Assembly: GCF_000186345.1 (NCBI RefSeq)
Contig: NC_014962.1
Span: forward strand, 3,314,450 to 3,378,449
Length of the DNA stretch: 64,000 nt
Direction: 5' to 3'
Source: Isosphaera pallida ATCC 43644
GTDB taxonomy: Bacteria > Planctomycetota > Planctomycetia > Isosphaerales > Isosphaeraceae
The position numbers and the translations under genes were made by a program. The notes under the pieces were generated by a model. The model was given only the letters and a program-made list of their open reading frames with translations. It made no database searches and had not been told where the DNA came from. Below are positions 20,094 to 60,224 of this stretch, in pieces (position 1 is the first letter of the stretch; every line of letters starts with the position of its first letter).

Positions 20094-22079
20094 TCAGGAC
20101 GGCCGGCGGGTGAGGGCCCGGGCGTGGCGGGCCAACGCCATGATCGGGAACGAGACCCGATAGAGGTGATACTTGAGGTAGAAGACCTTAGGGAAGCCGG
20201 TGCCGGTGAATTGATCCTCGGGCCAGTCGCCGTGGGAGGTTTGACGGTCGCGCAGCCAGGCGGCCGCGCGATGGGCGGCGGGGGAGTCGGCCCGTCCGGC
20301 GGCGATCAGACCTAGCAGGCCCCAGGCGGTTTGCGAGGGGGTGGGGGGGCCCTGGCCGATCCAGGAGCGATCCTCATAGCTTCGGCAGCTTTCGCCGAAG
20401 CCGCCGTCGGCCTGCTGGATCGTTTCCAGCCAGTCGGCCGCCTTGACCAAACGCGGGTCGCTCATCGGCCAACCTAGGGCGGCCAGACCTTGCAACACCT
20501 GCCAGGTGCCGTAAATCGCGTTGACTCCCCAGCGGCCCTCCCACCAGCCTTCCGGCTCCTGACGGCTCCAGATGAACTCCAGAGCCCGTTGGATCGACGG
20601 ATGAGACGAGGCGAATCCCAGTTGGCCCAGCATCTCGACAACCCGCGCGGTGATGTCGGCGCAACCAGGGTCGAGCATGGCGTTGTGGTCGGCGAAGGGC
20701 ACCTGGGTGAGCACCTGATTGTCAATGTCGGCGTCGAAGGCGGCCCAGGCTCCGTCGCGTCCCTGAAGCGCTAGCAACCAGTTGAGCGCCCGTTCGATCG
20801 CGGGCTTGACCGTTGGATCGTCGCGCAGACCGGCCCGATCGAGCGCCATGAGGACCATCGCAGTGTCGTCGATGTCGGCGTAATGATCGTTGAGATATTC
20901 AAACGCCCAGCCGCTGGGTTCGATGTGGCGGAACCGTCGGCGGATCGCCCAGTCGCCCTTGCGGCGGATCTCGCGGGCGACCAGCCAGCGGGAGGCGGTC
21001 GTCAGGGCGGTTTCGAGCTCGGCGCGGGCGGCCGGGTTGTTCTCGGCTTGAGCGTCGCGGACGTCGGCCAAGGCGATTGTGGCGATCGCGGTGTCCCAGA
21101 CCGGCGAGAGGCAGGGTTGGAGCCAGAGCAGGCCGTTTTCCTCGTCGCGCACCTTGAGGTCATCGAGTTGCCGCACGGCCCACTCGAAGAGGCGGTCGTT
21201 GCGGTCGTACCCGAGGGTTTCCAACACAACGACGGTGTAAATCATCGGCGGGAAGATCGCCCCCAGGCCATCGGAATCCTCAAAATGGTCAAGCATCCAT
21301 TGGTGGCAGGACCGCACCGCTGCGCGACGCCAGACGCCGGGTTTGATCCGGTCGAATGCCTTGAGCAACCGATCGACCCCGAGGAAGAAGCCCCGCCAGG
21401 TGAACAGGCCGGCGGGTTTGCGCCAATCGGGAACGAAATGGGGATTCTTCAGTTCGTCGATCCGAAGCGCGTCGGGCACCGGACGGCACGGCTTGAGGCT
21501 GGAGAGGATCGCCAACGGGACGACCAGGGTGCGGGTCCAACTCGACATCGCCGCCAAGCCGAAGGGAACCCAGGACGGCAGCCAGACGAGTTCCGGCGGC
21601 ACCGCCGGGCAATCGTCGTAGGGAATCTGGCCCAGAAGCGCCAGGTAAAACCGGGTGAAGCTGTTGCAGGCGTCGAGGCCGCCGTGTTGCAGGATCAACT
21701 CGCGGGCCCGGACCATGTCTGGCTCGTCGGGCGAGACCCCAACCAGCTTGAGGGCGAAGTAGGCTTTGACCGAGGCGCTGATCTCGAACGGCCCGCCGGG
21801 ATGGATCGCCCAACCGCCCTCGGGCCGGGCGTCGCGGCGCACCGAGCGGCAGGCGGCCACCACCTCGGGGTCGTCGAGTTCGCCGAGGAACGCCTTGAGC
21901 AGCACCCACTCGGTTTCCAGAATCGTGTCGCCTTCGAGCTCGCCGACCCAATGGCCATCCGTTTTGCGCTGGGCGAGCAACCACGCGGCGGCGCGTCGCG
22001 CGGCCAGGGCCGAATCGGCGGCAGCCTGTTCCGACACCGGCGCGGCCAACCCGCGCCCGTCCTGGGCGGTGACGATCAT
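20094..22079 (-). CDS. shc: Squalene-hopene cyclase
   Basis: A 661-residue class II terpene cyclase that converts squalene to hopene at the membrane. The catalytic acid motif DIDDTA has D402, D404 and D405. QW-type repeats are visible (GAWAAFDADIDN, GWWEGRWGVN, GGFGESCRSYED, GDWPEDQFTGTGFP). GTWQVLQGLAALG and FPKVFYLKYHLYR are the family C-terminal signatures. ATG 22079 has AAGGATGG eight bases upstream. Longer frames start within the 5-bp repeat tract and are Arg-rich. It is first in the minus-strand shc-hpnH-hpnG series. Upstream DNA is unusually structured (pentamer tract, G-rich heptad array). Confidence 0.95.
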   Translation of the reverse strand: MIVTAQDGRGLAAPVSEQAAADSALAARRAAAWLLAQRKTDGHWVGELEGDTILETEWVLLKAFLGELDDPEVVAACRSVRRDARPEGGWAIHPGGPFEISASVKAYFALKLVGVSPDEPDMVRARELILQHGGLDACNSFTRFYLALLGQIPYDDCPAVPPELVWLPSWVPFGLAAMSSWTRTLVVPLAILSSLKPCRPVPDALRIDELKNPHFVPDWRKPAGLFTWRGFFLGVDRLLKAFDRIKPGVWRRAAVRSCHQWMLDHFEDSDGLGAIFPPMIYTVVVLETLGYDRNDRLFEWAVRQLDDLKVRDEENGLLWLQPCLSPVWDTAIATIALADVRDAQAENNPAARAELETALTTASRWLVAREIRRKGDWAIRRRFRHIEPSGWAFEYLNDHYADIDDTAMVLMALDRAGLRDDPTVKPAIERALNWLLALQGRDGAWAAFDADIDNQVLTQVPFADHNAMLDPGCADITARVVEMLGQLGFASSHPSIQRALEFIWSRQEPEGWWEGRWGVNAIYGTWQVLQGLAALGWPMSDPRLVKAADWLETIQQADGGFGESCRSYEDRSWIGQGPPTPSQTAWGLLGLIAAGRADSPAAHRAAAWLRDRQTSHGDWPEDQFTGTGFPKVFYLKYHLYRVSFPIMALARHARALTRRPS

Positions 22080-22191: not shown

Positions 22192-22323
22192 TCGCCTTCG
22201 GCTTGCCCCATGACCCAACGAGTCACGAGCGAACCGTCCACCCGGCCGATCGGTTCGCCATCCTAGTGGCTCCGATCGCCTCGGACAACCCCAAACCGCT
22301 TGGCGAAACCAAGTTGAAACCGT

Positions 22324-22386
22324 GTGGGGAGTGGGGAGTGGGGAGTGGGGTGTGGGGAGTGGGGAGTAGGGTGTGGGGTGTGGGGT
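22324..22386. repeat. Nine tandem G-rich heptads
   Basis: Nine contiguous 7-base units with consensus GTGGGGW: GTGGGGA x3, GTGGGGT, GTGGGGA x2, GTAGGGT, GTGGGGT x2. Runs of four G separated by three bases make a strong G-quadruplex candidate on the plus strand. The array lies 245-307 bp upstream of shc and about 630 bp before mgtE. Confidence 0.85.
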
Positions 22387-22476
22387 GGAGAAAGTGAGGA
22401 GTGGGGTGATCGGAGAGGAAGGGAAGATGAGGGATGTTCTTGGAAGCGCCCACGCCTTGGGGTTCGGATGCGGGCG

Positions 22477-22532
22477 GATGCGGGCGGGACGCCCACGCTC
22501 CCAAGAGCCTACACTGGCGTCTCGCCCGCATC
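22477..22532. repeat. Long palindrome of a dispersed-repeat type
   Basis: Arm GATGCGGGCGGGACGCC at 22477-22493 pairs with GGCGTCTCGCCCGCATC at 22516-22532, 16 of 17 bases complementary, with a 22-base loop. The minus-strand translation across it reads SWERGRPARI, a phrase I have met in spurious translations of intergenic repeats from several bacterial phyla. That memory is not a search result. Confidence 0.6.
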
Positions 22533-22620
22533 TTCCTCCGGTTGAAGAACGCAAACGGTTCCTTCGGTATGCTTGCATTTTGATCATTTGCATTTATTCT
22601 ATTATCAGTGCTTGAAAACC

Positions 22621-22636
22621 ATCACCATAAGGTGAT
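22621..22636. promoter_or_regulatory. Operator-like palindrome
   Basis: ATCACC and GGTGAT flank ATAA in a perfect 16-base inverted repeat just after an AT-rich island. This arrangement would suit a dimeric regulator near the mgtE (or shc) promoter, or a short hairpin. The function is inference. Confidence 0.35.
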
Positions 22637-23016
22637 TGAATGGGTGTGGTCCGCGATGGTGTGACGGGTTGGGTGGTTGAGGGCCAAGCCCGGCCTTGTT
22701 GCGCGATGTTGGTGTCGGGGGGATCGGGGGGCCGTTGTCGGCGCGAGGAGGTTCCCAACCGGGACGAGGCGACGCCTGGCAACGCCGTGAGGTTGAGGAG
22801 CGGGCACCGGTTGGTCTGGGCGAGTCGGCGGGGTGGTGGTGAGTGGATTGGGGAATCGAGCGTTTCGGCGCGGGGAAAATCAAGCCAAGGGGAATCCCAA
22901 CGCTTGCCGTGGACGATTTCCGACCTCACAATCATCGGTCCGATTCGCCGCATGCGTTCACCGGGGGAGCGGTGGGACGGCGGGTCGGAGTGGGCGGGTT
23001 GGGAGTCTCTTGATTC

Positions 23017-24402
23017 ATGCTGCGTCACCCTCTGCTCGCGCCCGACCTGGAAGATTTCCTCGCGTGCGGCGAGGCAGAGGCGGTGCGCGAGTTTCTGGAG
23101 GAGCATGAGCCGCCGGTCATCGCCGAGATGCTCGCCGACCTGCCCAGCGAACGCGCCCAGGATGCGTTGGGGATGCTCGATCCCCGGACCGCCGCGCAGG
23201 TTTTCAGTTACTTCGACGCGGAGGATCAAGAGCGGGCGTTGTTGGGGATGCCCCCCGAACGTGCCGCCGGGTTGCTCCAGCACATGCCCCATGACGACCG
23301 GGCCGACCTGGTGGCCCGGTTCGACGACGAGGTGATCGAGCCGATTTTGCGGCGTCTGGCCCGCGCTGAACGCGAGGACATCCGCCGTTTGGCCAGTTAC
23401 GAACCGGGGACGGCCGGGGCGGTCATGACCACGGACTACGCCGCCCTCTCGGCGCGTCAGACCGTCCGCGAGGCACTGGAGCAACTGCGCCGCGAAGCGC
23501 CCGACCGCGAGACGATCGACCCGAGTTTTGTGGTCGACCACAAGCGGCGGCTGTTGGGGGTCGTGTCGCTCAAGACCTTAGTGCTGTCCCGACCCTCCAA
23601 GCGGATCGAAGAGGTCATGACCGACCGCAACCTGATCACCGCCCAACTCGACGAGGACCAGGAGGAGGTGGCCCGCAAGATCGCCAAGTACGACCTGTTA
23701 GCCCTGCCGGTCCTCGACGCCGACCACCAACTGGTGGGGATCGTCACCCACGACGACGCGGTGGACATCCTTCAACGCGAGCAAACCGAGGACCTGTTGG
23801 CCCTGACCGGTGTGCAATCCCAGGCCGACGACGCCGACGAGGGCTACTGGAATCCGCCGGTGGTCACGGTGGTGCGGCGACGCGTGGTCTGGCTGGTGGC
23901 CTTGTTCGTCTCCGGGATGATGACCGCCACCGTCACCGACTCGTTCGGCGGGGCGCTGGGGCCGGAACTCGTGGCGCTTCTCAGCGCGTTTGTGCCGATG
24001 CTGATCGGCACTGGCGGCAACGCCGGCAGCCAGACGGTCGGCACTGTCATCCGCGGCTTGGCTCTGGAGGAGATTCAGACCAGCGACCTGCTTCGGGTGA
24101 TCCGTCGGGAGGGTCTAACCGGCTTGATTCTGGGCTTGTTGATGGGTCCAATGGGGATGCTCTTCGTGGTGAGCATGGGGCGTCCCCTGGTGGCTGGTTT
24201 GGTGGTCGGGCTGGCGATTGTAGGCATTTGTTTGTGGGCCAACATCGTCGGTGCGATCGTTCCCCTCATCGCCAAGCGGCTCAACATCGACCCAGCGATT
24301 GTGTCGGCACCGATGATCTCCACACTGGTCGATGTTACAGGGATGATCATTTATTACGGCATCGCGTTGCTCATTCTGGTCCGGCTCCGGTTGTTAGAGT
24401 GA
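23017..24402 (+). CDS. mgtE: MgtE-type magnesium transporter
   Basis: A 461-residue Mg2+ channel/transporter. The N-terminal superhelical domain has the family repeats (EMLADLPSERAQDALGMLDP, LLQHMPHDDRADLVARF). Two CBS domains follow (about 140-260) starting with the signature YEPGTAGAVMTTDY. Five C-terminal membrane helices contain the pore motif region PMLIGTGGNAGSQTVGTVIRGLALEEI. The acidic residues of the N and CBS domains that sense cytosolic Mg2+ appear kept. It starts at ATG 23017 after GGGTTGGGAG. It stands alone, divergent from the hopanoid genes. Confidence 0.94.
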   Translation: MLRHPLLAPDLEDFLACGEAEAVREFLEEHEPPVIAEMLADLPSERAQDALGMLDPRTAAQVFSYFDAEDQERALLGMPPERAAGLLQHMPHDDRADLVARFDDEVIEPILRRLARAEREDIRRLASYEPGTAGAVMTTDYAALSARQTVREALEQLRREAPDRETIDPSFVVDHKRRLLGVVSLKTLVLSRPSKRIEEVMTDRNLITAQLDEDQEEVARKIAKYDLLALPVLDADHQLVGIVTHDDAVDILQREQTEDLLALTGVQSQADDADEGYWNPPVVTVVRRRVVWLVALFVSGMMTATVTDSFGGALGPELVALLSAFVPMLIGTGGNAGSQTVGTVIRGLALEEIQTSDLLRVIRREGLTGLILGLLMGPMGMLFVVSMGRPLVAGLVVGLAIVGICLWANIVGAIVPLIAKRLNIDPAIVSAPMISTLVDVTGMIIYYGIALLILVRLRLLE

Positions 24403-58556: not shown

Positions 58557-60224
58557 ATGTCATTGTTTGACTTGTCCCGTCGCGGCCAGGCGCGCCGCCG
58601 CCCCTGTCGCCACCGTCCCGGTCTGGATGGTTTGGAAACCCGCCGACTGTTAACGATCGACTTCTCCCCCCTCACTGGGGTTTTGAGCATCACCGGCACC
58701 TTCGACCCCGAGACCGGTTTGCCCAACGACGATCGCGTTTTGCTGAGCCTCAACGCGACCAATCCCGCCCAGCTTGACGTGACCCTCAACGAGGAGGTGG
58801 TTAGCCTCAACGCCGCCGAGGTCCAGTCAATCAGCGTCGCGTTGGGCGGCGGGGCCGACCTGTTGACCATCAACCTCGCCAACGGCAACCCCATTCCCGT
58901 CGGGGGGCTGACCTACGACGGCGGACTGGACCCGGCCGGCCTCCTCAACCGCCTGCAACTCCTGGGCGGCGCGGAGTCGTCCGGCAACCTCACCTCCGTT
59001 GGCGGCGACCAGTTCGTGGTAGATGGGCGGGTCGTCACCCCCGTCAACGTGGGTCTGACCCGGATCGCCTCGTTCCGCGACTTCCAGGTGGTCACACCCA
59101 ACAGCCAGGATCGGATCACTCTGAGCAGCCCCGACGGACTCGAAACCCTGGTCACCGGCACCAGCGACGGTCAACCCATCCCCAACCTCCTCTTCGCCAC
59201 CAATGTGGAGGTCACCCTAAGCCTGGACATCAACGACGGCACCGGATCGGGATTGACCGATGACCAGATCGTGGTCGATCCCAACGGCGGCGGTGCGGTC
59301 AACTTCAACATTTTCACCGGGGCCGGCAGCGACCTGGTCGATCTGACTGGAACCACCGGCGCTCACGTCGTGAACGGCGGCGACGGCGACGATACCCTCA
59401 TCGGCGGTTCGGGTGACGACACCCTCGCCGGCGGCGCGGGCAACGATGTCCTCGCTGGCGGCGCGGGAGCGGATCTGCTGATTGGCGGGGTCGGCAACGA
59501 CTCGCTTTCCGGCGGCGCGGGGCAGGATTCGCTCTTCGGCGGCGACGGCGACGACACCCTCGCCGGCGGCGACGGCGACGACCTGTTGGTTGGCGGCGAC
59601 GGCGACGACATCCTCTTCGGGGGTGACGGTAACGACATCCTCTTCGGAGGTGACGGCAACGACGCCCTCGCCGGCGGTTCGGGTGACGACACCTTGTTCG
59701 GCAACGACGGCGAGGATGTCTTGCTGGGCGGACCCGGCAACGATGAAATCTTCGGCGGCCTCGGCTTCGACGCAATCGACGGCGGACCCGGCAACAACAT
59801 TCTGGACGCCGGACGCGATGGCATCCATGAAACCATCCGCGTGGGCGACGGCAACACCATCGTTTACGTCCACCGACCCTACTTCGGCAACGCCGAGGAT
59901 CGCGCCGTCGTGGGCCGAGGCCACAACCAGATCCGTCTGGGCGGCGGCCTCGTCGAAGTCGATGCCCCCGCTGAACCGGTTTTCTTCCGGGGCGTCATGG
60001 TCGCTGACCCGGTCCTAGTTCCATTCCTTCGTCAGCCAGGTTCGAATGAACACCTCTTCCCGCCGCGATCCTTCGTCGAGTTCAACGACCCCCGACGAGG
60101 CGCGCCGGCTCTCATCCATCGGGTGAGGAGTTTCCCTCCCCAGCATCGGACCAAGCCGCCGATTCCAGCTCGCGTGCCTCATCGCGCCGCCAAGCCGTTT
60201 GTGATTCGAACGCGGGGCCGTTGA
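58557..60224 (+). CDS. RTX-type calcium-binding repeat protein with LEPR-XLL-like N-terminus
   Basis: A 555-residue surface or secreted protein. The N-terminal [17 protein letters not shown] fits the planctomycete LEPR-XLL-type motif (here LETRRLL) found on large exported proteins in place of a classic signal peptide. Residues 274-417 are sixteen tandem nonapeptides of the RTX form GGxGxDxLx (for example GGDGDDTLA), which bind Ca2+ in a parallel beta roll. Residues about 60-260 are beta-rich. The tail (about 470-555) is Pro/Arg-rich, unlike the acidic secretion signal of type I RTX exporters, and no ABC exporter genes are adjacent. Confidence 0.88.

Follow-up and report, generated by a model that had tools for sequence, protein, structure and literature searches.

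We analysed 64,000 nucleotides of the Isosphaera pallida ATCC 43644 genome (the window), in which nine G-rich heptads (9 x GTGGGGW) stand in tandem at positions 22324-22386 with the G-rich strand forward. We read this array as the gene-less surviving end of a dispersed foldback-type element of S23 type, and not as a switch for the neighbouring squalene-hopene cyclase gene (shc), with a probability of about 0.62. Heptad arrays of this kind look like the leftovers of a little-known genetic parasite. In its complete form, the element would consist of two facing heptad arrays, with the G-strand 5′ outermost on both strands, flanking a core, and would fold as a long DNA or RNA hairpin. The coding form would carry a small four-helix-bundle protein of the S23, or 23S-rRNA-intervening-sequence, family (PF05635), whilst gene-less copies and solo arrays would be by-products. 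Such elements would occupy intergenic spacers, mostly directly adjoining a stop codon, and by analogy with rRNA intervening sequences they would probably be tolerated in operons through excision or cleavage of the transcript hairpin, for instance by RNase III. The window copy would have lost its second arm and protein gene, or never had them. The direct observations behind this reading are the array itself, its dispersal, the pairing and polarity of the arms, their abutment on stop codons, an S23 gene in one element, 7-bp periodicity at S23 loci elsewhere and one replacement in Microcystis.

The window array was delimited by direct reading, Tandem Repeats Finder and shuffles. Eight of its nine units are GTGGGGA or GTGGGGT and unit 7 is GTAGGGT. 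Tandem Repeats Finder reports 22324-22385 with a period of 7, 8.9 copies and 90% matches, and three consecutive units with up to two mismatches match seven times in the real window and never in 100 dinucleotide-preserving shuffles of it. Past 22386 the degenerate units GGAGAAA, GTGAGGA and GTGGGGT continue up to about 22408, and array scoring places the whole arm, degenerate units included, at 22322-22408 (+). The sequence-only reading had reported nine heptads of exact 7-base periodicity; the nine heptads are there, but "exact" slightly overstates the case because of unit 7 and the degenerate continuation. Folded as single-stranded DNA the array gives z -0.78, a measure that is uninformative for G-quadruplexes; circular dichroism data exist for the sister sequences GGGGACT and GGGGATT in the available part of PMC4692102.

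Array scoring and an inverted-repeat search of 22240-23016 found no facing C-rich partner in the spacer, so that the window copy is a solo arm in place of two facing arrays, and no PF05635 ORF was found in it. It does have in common with the paired elements described below a motif at the junction of array and core (GTGATCGGAGAGGAA, 22406-22420, +). This motif recurs at an identical offset from the array end in both arms of L054 (14/15), in L050 (13/15) and, more weakly, in L056 (12/15); among 2000 random 220-bp pieces 14/15 was reached 3 times, 13/15 8 times and 12/15 7 times. We read the window array as an element end without its other half and infer that the arm descends from a paired element. 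Just downstream lies a 17-bp inverted repeat (GATGCGGGCGGGACGCC ... GGCGTCTCGCCCGCATC, 22477-22532). A 26-base piece of it (22478-22503) occurs exactly at four places in the Isosphaeraceae genome G411, among the matches listed, and a slightly longer piece has a 91% match in G412; it therefore seems to be a dispersed palindromic repeat in its own right. At the opposite end of the window, 59375-59795 holds a long 27/54-bp tandem repeat, which we take possibly to code for an RTX-like glycine/aspartate-rich repeat.

The sequence-only reading had placed the array in the divergent spacer between shc and mgtE, and its neighbours are indeed a squalene-hopene cyclase gene (20094-22079, -) and an MgtE magnesium transporter gene (23017-24402, +), the latter 608 bp downstream of the array, whose G-strand is antisense to shc. 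Four of five relatives examined carry a MIAN.../MIVK... stretch shortly before the conserved GHW (L192, the fifth, yielded no result), which makes the ATG (MIVT...) at 22079 a better candidate start than the GTG of the longer form at 22241. The array therefore begins 245 bp upstream of the probable start of shc. A tandem array within a divergent spacer upstream of shc could act as a phase-variable or roadblock element controlling hopanoid synthesis. However, we hold this to be very improbable: the array is one of 42 dispersed arms in the genome, the genes beside the other arms are diverse (19 neighbours checked), the likely start is 245 bp away, one array unit is already degenerate, and in the nine relatives for which matches to both shc and mgtE are listed on one contig, the two are separated by 385 kb or more. 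Because the two genes are apart in relatives, no orthologous empty site for the spacer was obtainable; the family sample comprised 45 genomes, without a second genome of the genus Isosphaera. Of the three possibilities that the sequence-only reading had proposed, a simple-sequence relic comes closest, the array being a relic-like solo arm of a dispersed element family, whilst phase variation of hopanoid synthesis finds no support. The array is not special to shc and nothing links it to shc regulation. As the window copy is without its partner arm, we expect no effect on either neighbour, and it is most likely inert towards both shc and mgtE. G-rich heptad arrays should not each be read as a promoter switch.

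The I. pallida genome consists of two contigs of 5,472,964 and 56,340 bases (total 5,529,304). Three exact units in a row match 211 times across it, overlaps counted, and the pattern read backwards matches 43 times, although GTGGGGT arrays also satisfy the latter, so that these 43 may partly be the same arrays. BLAST with the window array found 64 places. Array scoring of the fetched loci, with arms scoring below 20 dropped, gave 42 arms at 27 sites. Of these arms, 28 are arranged in 14 pairs that face each other, the 5′ end of the G-rich strand being outermost on either strand. A fifteenth paired element, L061, was added by eye and has just one or two heptads on each side; together with 12 solo sites the 15 paired elements make up the 27. 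The paired, hairpin-like elements span 350-1229 bases each and together occupy 10,445 of 5,529,304 bases (approximately 0.19%). Inverted inner arms are present in L052a (183 bp at 98%), L045 (72 bp at 92%) and L055 (51 bp at 94%), and L048, L049 and L053 have none outside the heptads. Several cores are common to more than one locus (L048/L049/L056, L053/L054/L061 and L052a/b).

Within an element the two arms are unlike in the number and order of their units, and higher-order units of 14, 21 and 28 bp occur, as would result from plain simple-sequence expansion unrelated to S23, in which G-rich heptads are seeded in spacers by chance and multiply by slippage. We regard this as an improbable account of the whole family, since facing pairs, consistent polarity, common cores and an association with S23 are unexpected from slippage alone. 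In L047 (2731-3446; G000:C2:2966230-2966945) a 28-bp unit of four diverged heptads is repeated about 10 times, which suggests local amplification of higher-order units. On the 56-kb plasmid, an array of roughly 250 bp runs across the record start (L040/L039; G000:C1:56169-56340 and 1-78) and lies 3 bp past the stop codon of a gene for an NAD-dependent epimerase.

Within its own phylum, four exact units in a row were found in 1/392 genomes of the phylum sample and three in 1/45 family genomes, in both cases only I. pallida, and one relative (G406) has a 59-base stretch 85% alike to the array. A scan of reference genomes found GTGGGGW arrays mainly in cyanobacteria and in a few other bacteria, among the matches listed. 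A reverse-transcriptase origin of the repeats was dropped, as the genome has no match to the reverse transcriptase profile PF00078.

The arms are placed precisely with respect to genes, as called by our own codon scores. In 23 of the 42 arms the 5′ end of the G-strand follows a sense stop codon at a distance of no more than 10 bp (null 1.8%, taken from intergenic positions; binomial p 2.5e-29), whereas the 3′ end comes that close to a gene in 0/39 arms. Six elements (L042, L044, L049, L054, L057 and L061) occupy the whole spacer of a convergent gene pair, reaching from one stop to the other, and neither end of L047 or L056 adjoins a called gene. The window copy precedes a start codon and has no sense gene on its upstream side, and is therefore not one of the stop-abutting copies. 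In other genomes we analysed 80 of at least 119 listed stretches, comprising 124 arms. With ORFs of at least 150 aa, the 5′ end lies at a sense stop in 24/124 arms and the 3′ end at an antisense stop in 1, the 5′ end lies within 10 bp of an antisense start in 6/124, and facing outnumber divergent neighbour arms by 16 to 3. The number of abutting arms varies with the minimum ORF length: at 150 aa it includes none of the 15 non-cyanobacterial arms, and with ORFs of at least 100 codons it comes to 32/124, including the non-cyanobacterial L096, L130 and L139.

This precision after sense stops, with a G-rich sense strand in 23/42 arms, and the like preference in Nostoc and Xanthomonas reported in the available part of PMC4692102 would suit a functional 3′-end element, placed by selection, in which an mRNA G-quadruplex or hairpin ends or stabilises transcripts. 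However, the G-strand also points away from start codons, in the 6/124 arms above and also in that paper, and polarity therefore follows ORF edges and not transcription. Moreover, the adjacent genes are diverse, as noted above, low-G units (TTAGCTG and AAAAGCT) stand just past a CDS end at the plasmid S23 locus L311, and the window copy lacks a sense gene upstream. We consider a 3′-end function unlikely. TGA was also tried as an insertion motif: it ends 21/23 abutting genes and 41/56 other genes (p 0.13), and the arm ends listed away from stops are without it, so the motif was dropped.

Inverted ends, mostly non-coding cores and dispersal are also what foldback or MITE-like elements moved by an ordinary transposase encoded elsewhere would display. 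Against this, the 15 I. pallida elements have no target-site duplications (mean longest match 3.33 vs 3.27), the pairs are too short for most transposases, and the sole ORF recognised inside any pair is an S23 gene, in one of them, with no transposase recognised within the 15 pairs. We therefore think movement by an ordinary transposase decidedly unlikely and return to the S23-type element.

The pair that holds this gene, L045, follows directly after the polA stop and contains an ORF of 123 aa that matches PF05635 (E 7e-40) and TIGR02436, four helix bundle protein. In a profile search of the whole I. pallida genome it is the only PF05635 match, and the other paired elements have no S23 gene; one S23 gene for 27 array sites counts against our main reading, as do the lack of an S23 ORF and of a partner arm in the window copy and the lack of target-site duplications in the paired elements. 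An element of the same build, L125, was found through its heptads alone in a Nitrosomonadales MAG, where the rmlD stop is succeeded by a GTGGGGA array, an S23 ORF, an inverted array and rmlA. A Gallionella MAG has another S23 gene at the rmlD-rmlA site with other heptads (GTAGTAA-like, judged by eye). In Xanthomonas codiaei, S23 sits between accB and accC with GGGAATC-like units in its flanks, seen by eye and below our lag-7 threshold. A cyanobacterial horizontal origin of the I. pallida cores was considered and rejected: the loci compared gave only two weak core matches, L042-L209 (E 0.004) and L045-L125 (E 7e-9), and the latter proved to be the S23 gene itself.

PF05635 is present in 24 of 26 heptad-rich genomes vs 0 of 14 control genomes. 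The two heptad-rich genomes with no match, which count against the link, include Microcystis G436; a 2-kb query holding a GTGGGG array has 60 matches in that genome, most of them to the array part, among the matches listed. A tblastn search for S23 in phages gave no match. Structures of S23/IVP proteins are available (2gsc and 2rld, five chains each), and according to the available part of PMC4990558 these proteins have no known function. Annotated neighbours of S23 genes include cas6/cas4, cas10/cmr3 and nrdB/nrdA. On three cyanobacterial plasmids (L303, L309 and L311), S23 genes lie within CRISPR-cas gene clusters. Predicted RNA folds of the L125 and L049 elements are very stable hairpins (z -8.6 and -9.9, respectively), and on the model of rRNA intervening sequences the RNA hairpin may be processed. 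S23 itself may drive, or once have driven, the spreading.

We next consider the flanks of S23 genes at large. The main set held 71 loci, namely the I. pallida gene and 70 of 129 PF05635 matches, 30 of these chosen by the tool and 40 by us roughly by score; L125 was left out, as were some matches that contained an internal stop or were close to the end of a contig. Period-7 arrays occur in 82/139 flanks of up to 300 bp vs 15/276 windows 600-1200 bp away (p 2e-33). Across the same 71 loci few or no arrays are found at periods 4, 5, 6, 10, 11 and 12, the counts for period 8 are 4 vs 3, and period 9 shows a mild excess (7/139 near vs 3/276 far, p 0.02). At a stricter setting, 45/71 loci have an array within 400 bp, and where both flanks hold an array (26 loci) the two are inverted in 16 cases, direct in 4 and neither in 6. 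The source genomes of this main set were picked for GTGGGGW arrays, and therefore only a second set, of plasmids, is unselected; it is mostly cyanobacterial and comprises 18 loci of 34 records not chosen for heptads. Here 12/18 loci have an array, and period-7 arrays occur in 18/36 near vs 4/71 far windows (p 2e-7). An upstream array is present in 11 of these plasmid loci, and the distances of its start to the end of the CDS before it are 2, 6, 10, 114, 14, 21, 7, -10, 2, 5 and 5 bp; in L299 and L302 that CDS lies on the opposite strand.

Taken over 89 S23 loci, lag-7 identity is 0.424 near vs 0.263 far (p 3e-60), with further peaks at 14 and 21 and a rise of only 0.01 to 0.05 at other lags. 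The 22/35 lag-7 threshold is reached on at least one side in 69/89 loci vs 7/89 far-window pairs, leaving 20/89, including that of I. pallida, below it within 130 bp. In an intergenic-only control, 52/80 segments touching S23 pass vs 17/83 segments more than 400 bp away (p 8e-9), and the 17 come from genomes chosen as heptad-rich. Moreover, the upstream flank is more purine-rich than the downstream flank in 69/89 loci. The units themselves differ freely between loci (TTTGAGG, GGGGCTG, AAAAGCT and others), and as elements of the same build use many such 7-base units, G-richness is not a defining property of the elements. Co-evolution of S23 with its unit, the protein reading its own heptad, was rejected, for unit likeness and S23 relatedness show no overall correlation (all pairs, Spearman 0.03, p 0.25); the closest 2% of S23 pairs do have more alike units (5.27 vs 3.98 of 7).

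Microcystis spacers show such repeats turning over. One spacer (L123 and its orthologues L199-L203), with flanks 94-98% identical, carries different repeats in four genomes: CCCCACA heptads in the first, short G-rich facing repeats and a few TAACTGA units in the second, and long TCAGTAA/TAACTGA arrays in the remaining two. At another spacer, 22 bp are common to three genomes and the fourth has about 152 bp with heptads instead; on one reading this junction represents a 20-bp loss with a 4-bp duplication (TAAC). Close to a CCCCACA array, L214 (15939-16265) holds a repeat of about 330 bp with dozens of copies across three Microcystis genomes, among the matches listed.

We tentatively extend these findings to a hypothesis that we rate at somewhat less than an even chance. 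It supposes widespread, transposase-free bacterial mobile elements that consist of an S23 gene between inverted arrays with a unit fixed at 7 bases in length and variable in sequence, and that insert flush with gene ends inside operons or gene pairs (cas6-cas4, cas10-cmr3, nrdB-nrdA, accB-accC and rmlD-rmlA). The dispersed heptads of cyanobacteria, Xanthomonas and a planctomycete would be solo or gene-less derivatives, and an S23-linked machinery would count seven bases and read no sequence. Heptameric repeats have been described several times without explanation. Should S23 and heptads prove to be linked, a DNA partner would be identified for an orphan protein family, a common origin would account for several repeat families that lack an explanation, and the constant period of 7 bases would offer a way to test for a new mechanism of mobility or RNA processing.

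Among known systems, the foldback transposons of Drosophila have long inverted ends built of short tandem repeats; the I. pallida elements differ in having no recognised transposase, inside the 15 pairs, and no target duplication. Heterocystous cyanobacteria reportedly contain heptanucleotide tandem repeats termed STRR, described by Mazel in 1990. Dispersed heptads, their preference for stop codons, pairing in Xanthomonas and heptads in one intervening sequence are already in print. We found no paper joining dispersed heptads to S23, bar the Coxiella heptads discussed below, in a literature search that left subscription papers mostly outside.

The TAACTGA heptads of Beggiatoaceae, cyanobacteria and Bacteroidetes are likewise dispersed, intergenic 7-base tandem repeats, and in two Microcystis genomes such units take up the spacer whose orthologue in another genome holds CCCCACA heptads. 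They have another unit, and the available part of their description places them mostly just upstream of start codons and, by word search, makes no mention of S23 (MacGregor 2015, PMC4679880). A further known system is the G-rich dispersed heptad of Rehm et al. (2015, PMC4692102), the available part of which describes GGGAATC in Xanthomonas and GGGGAYT in Nostoc as dispersed, intergenic and close after stops on the coding strand, with a preference for 0-50 bp after stops and with 70 and 75 convergent pairs in two Xanthomonas genomes; a word search of that part finds no mention of S23 or four-helix proteins. The I. pallida family resembles this type in having a tandem 7-base unit with a G-tract of at least 3 and many, mostly intergenic, copies genome-wide, some of them after stops. 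It differs in its near-exact abutment, its foldback cores and the S23 gene inside one pair, and elements of the I. pallida build elsewhere use many non-G units.

The intervening sequence (IVS) of the Coxiella 23S gene is, in the available part of PMC4990558, an S23-coding insert excised by RNase III, with tandem heptads upstream of the S23 ORF whose number varies by strain. It thus resembles the S23-type elements in being a hairpin-forming insert that combines an S23 ORF with tandem heptads. However, the IVS lies inside rRNA genes, whereas the window and L045 copies lie between protein genes and not in an rRNA helix, and the present elements carry heptads on both sides and most are without an ORF.
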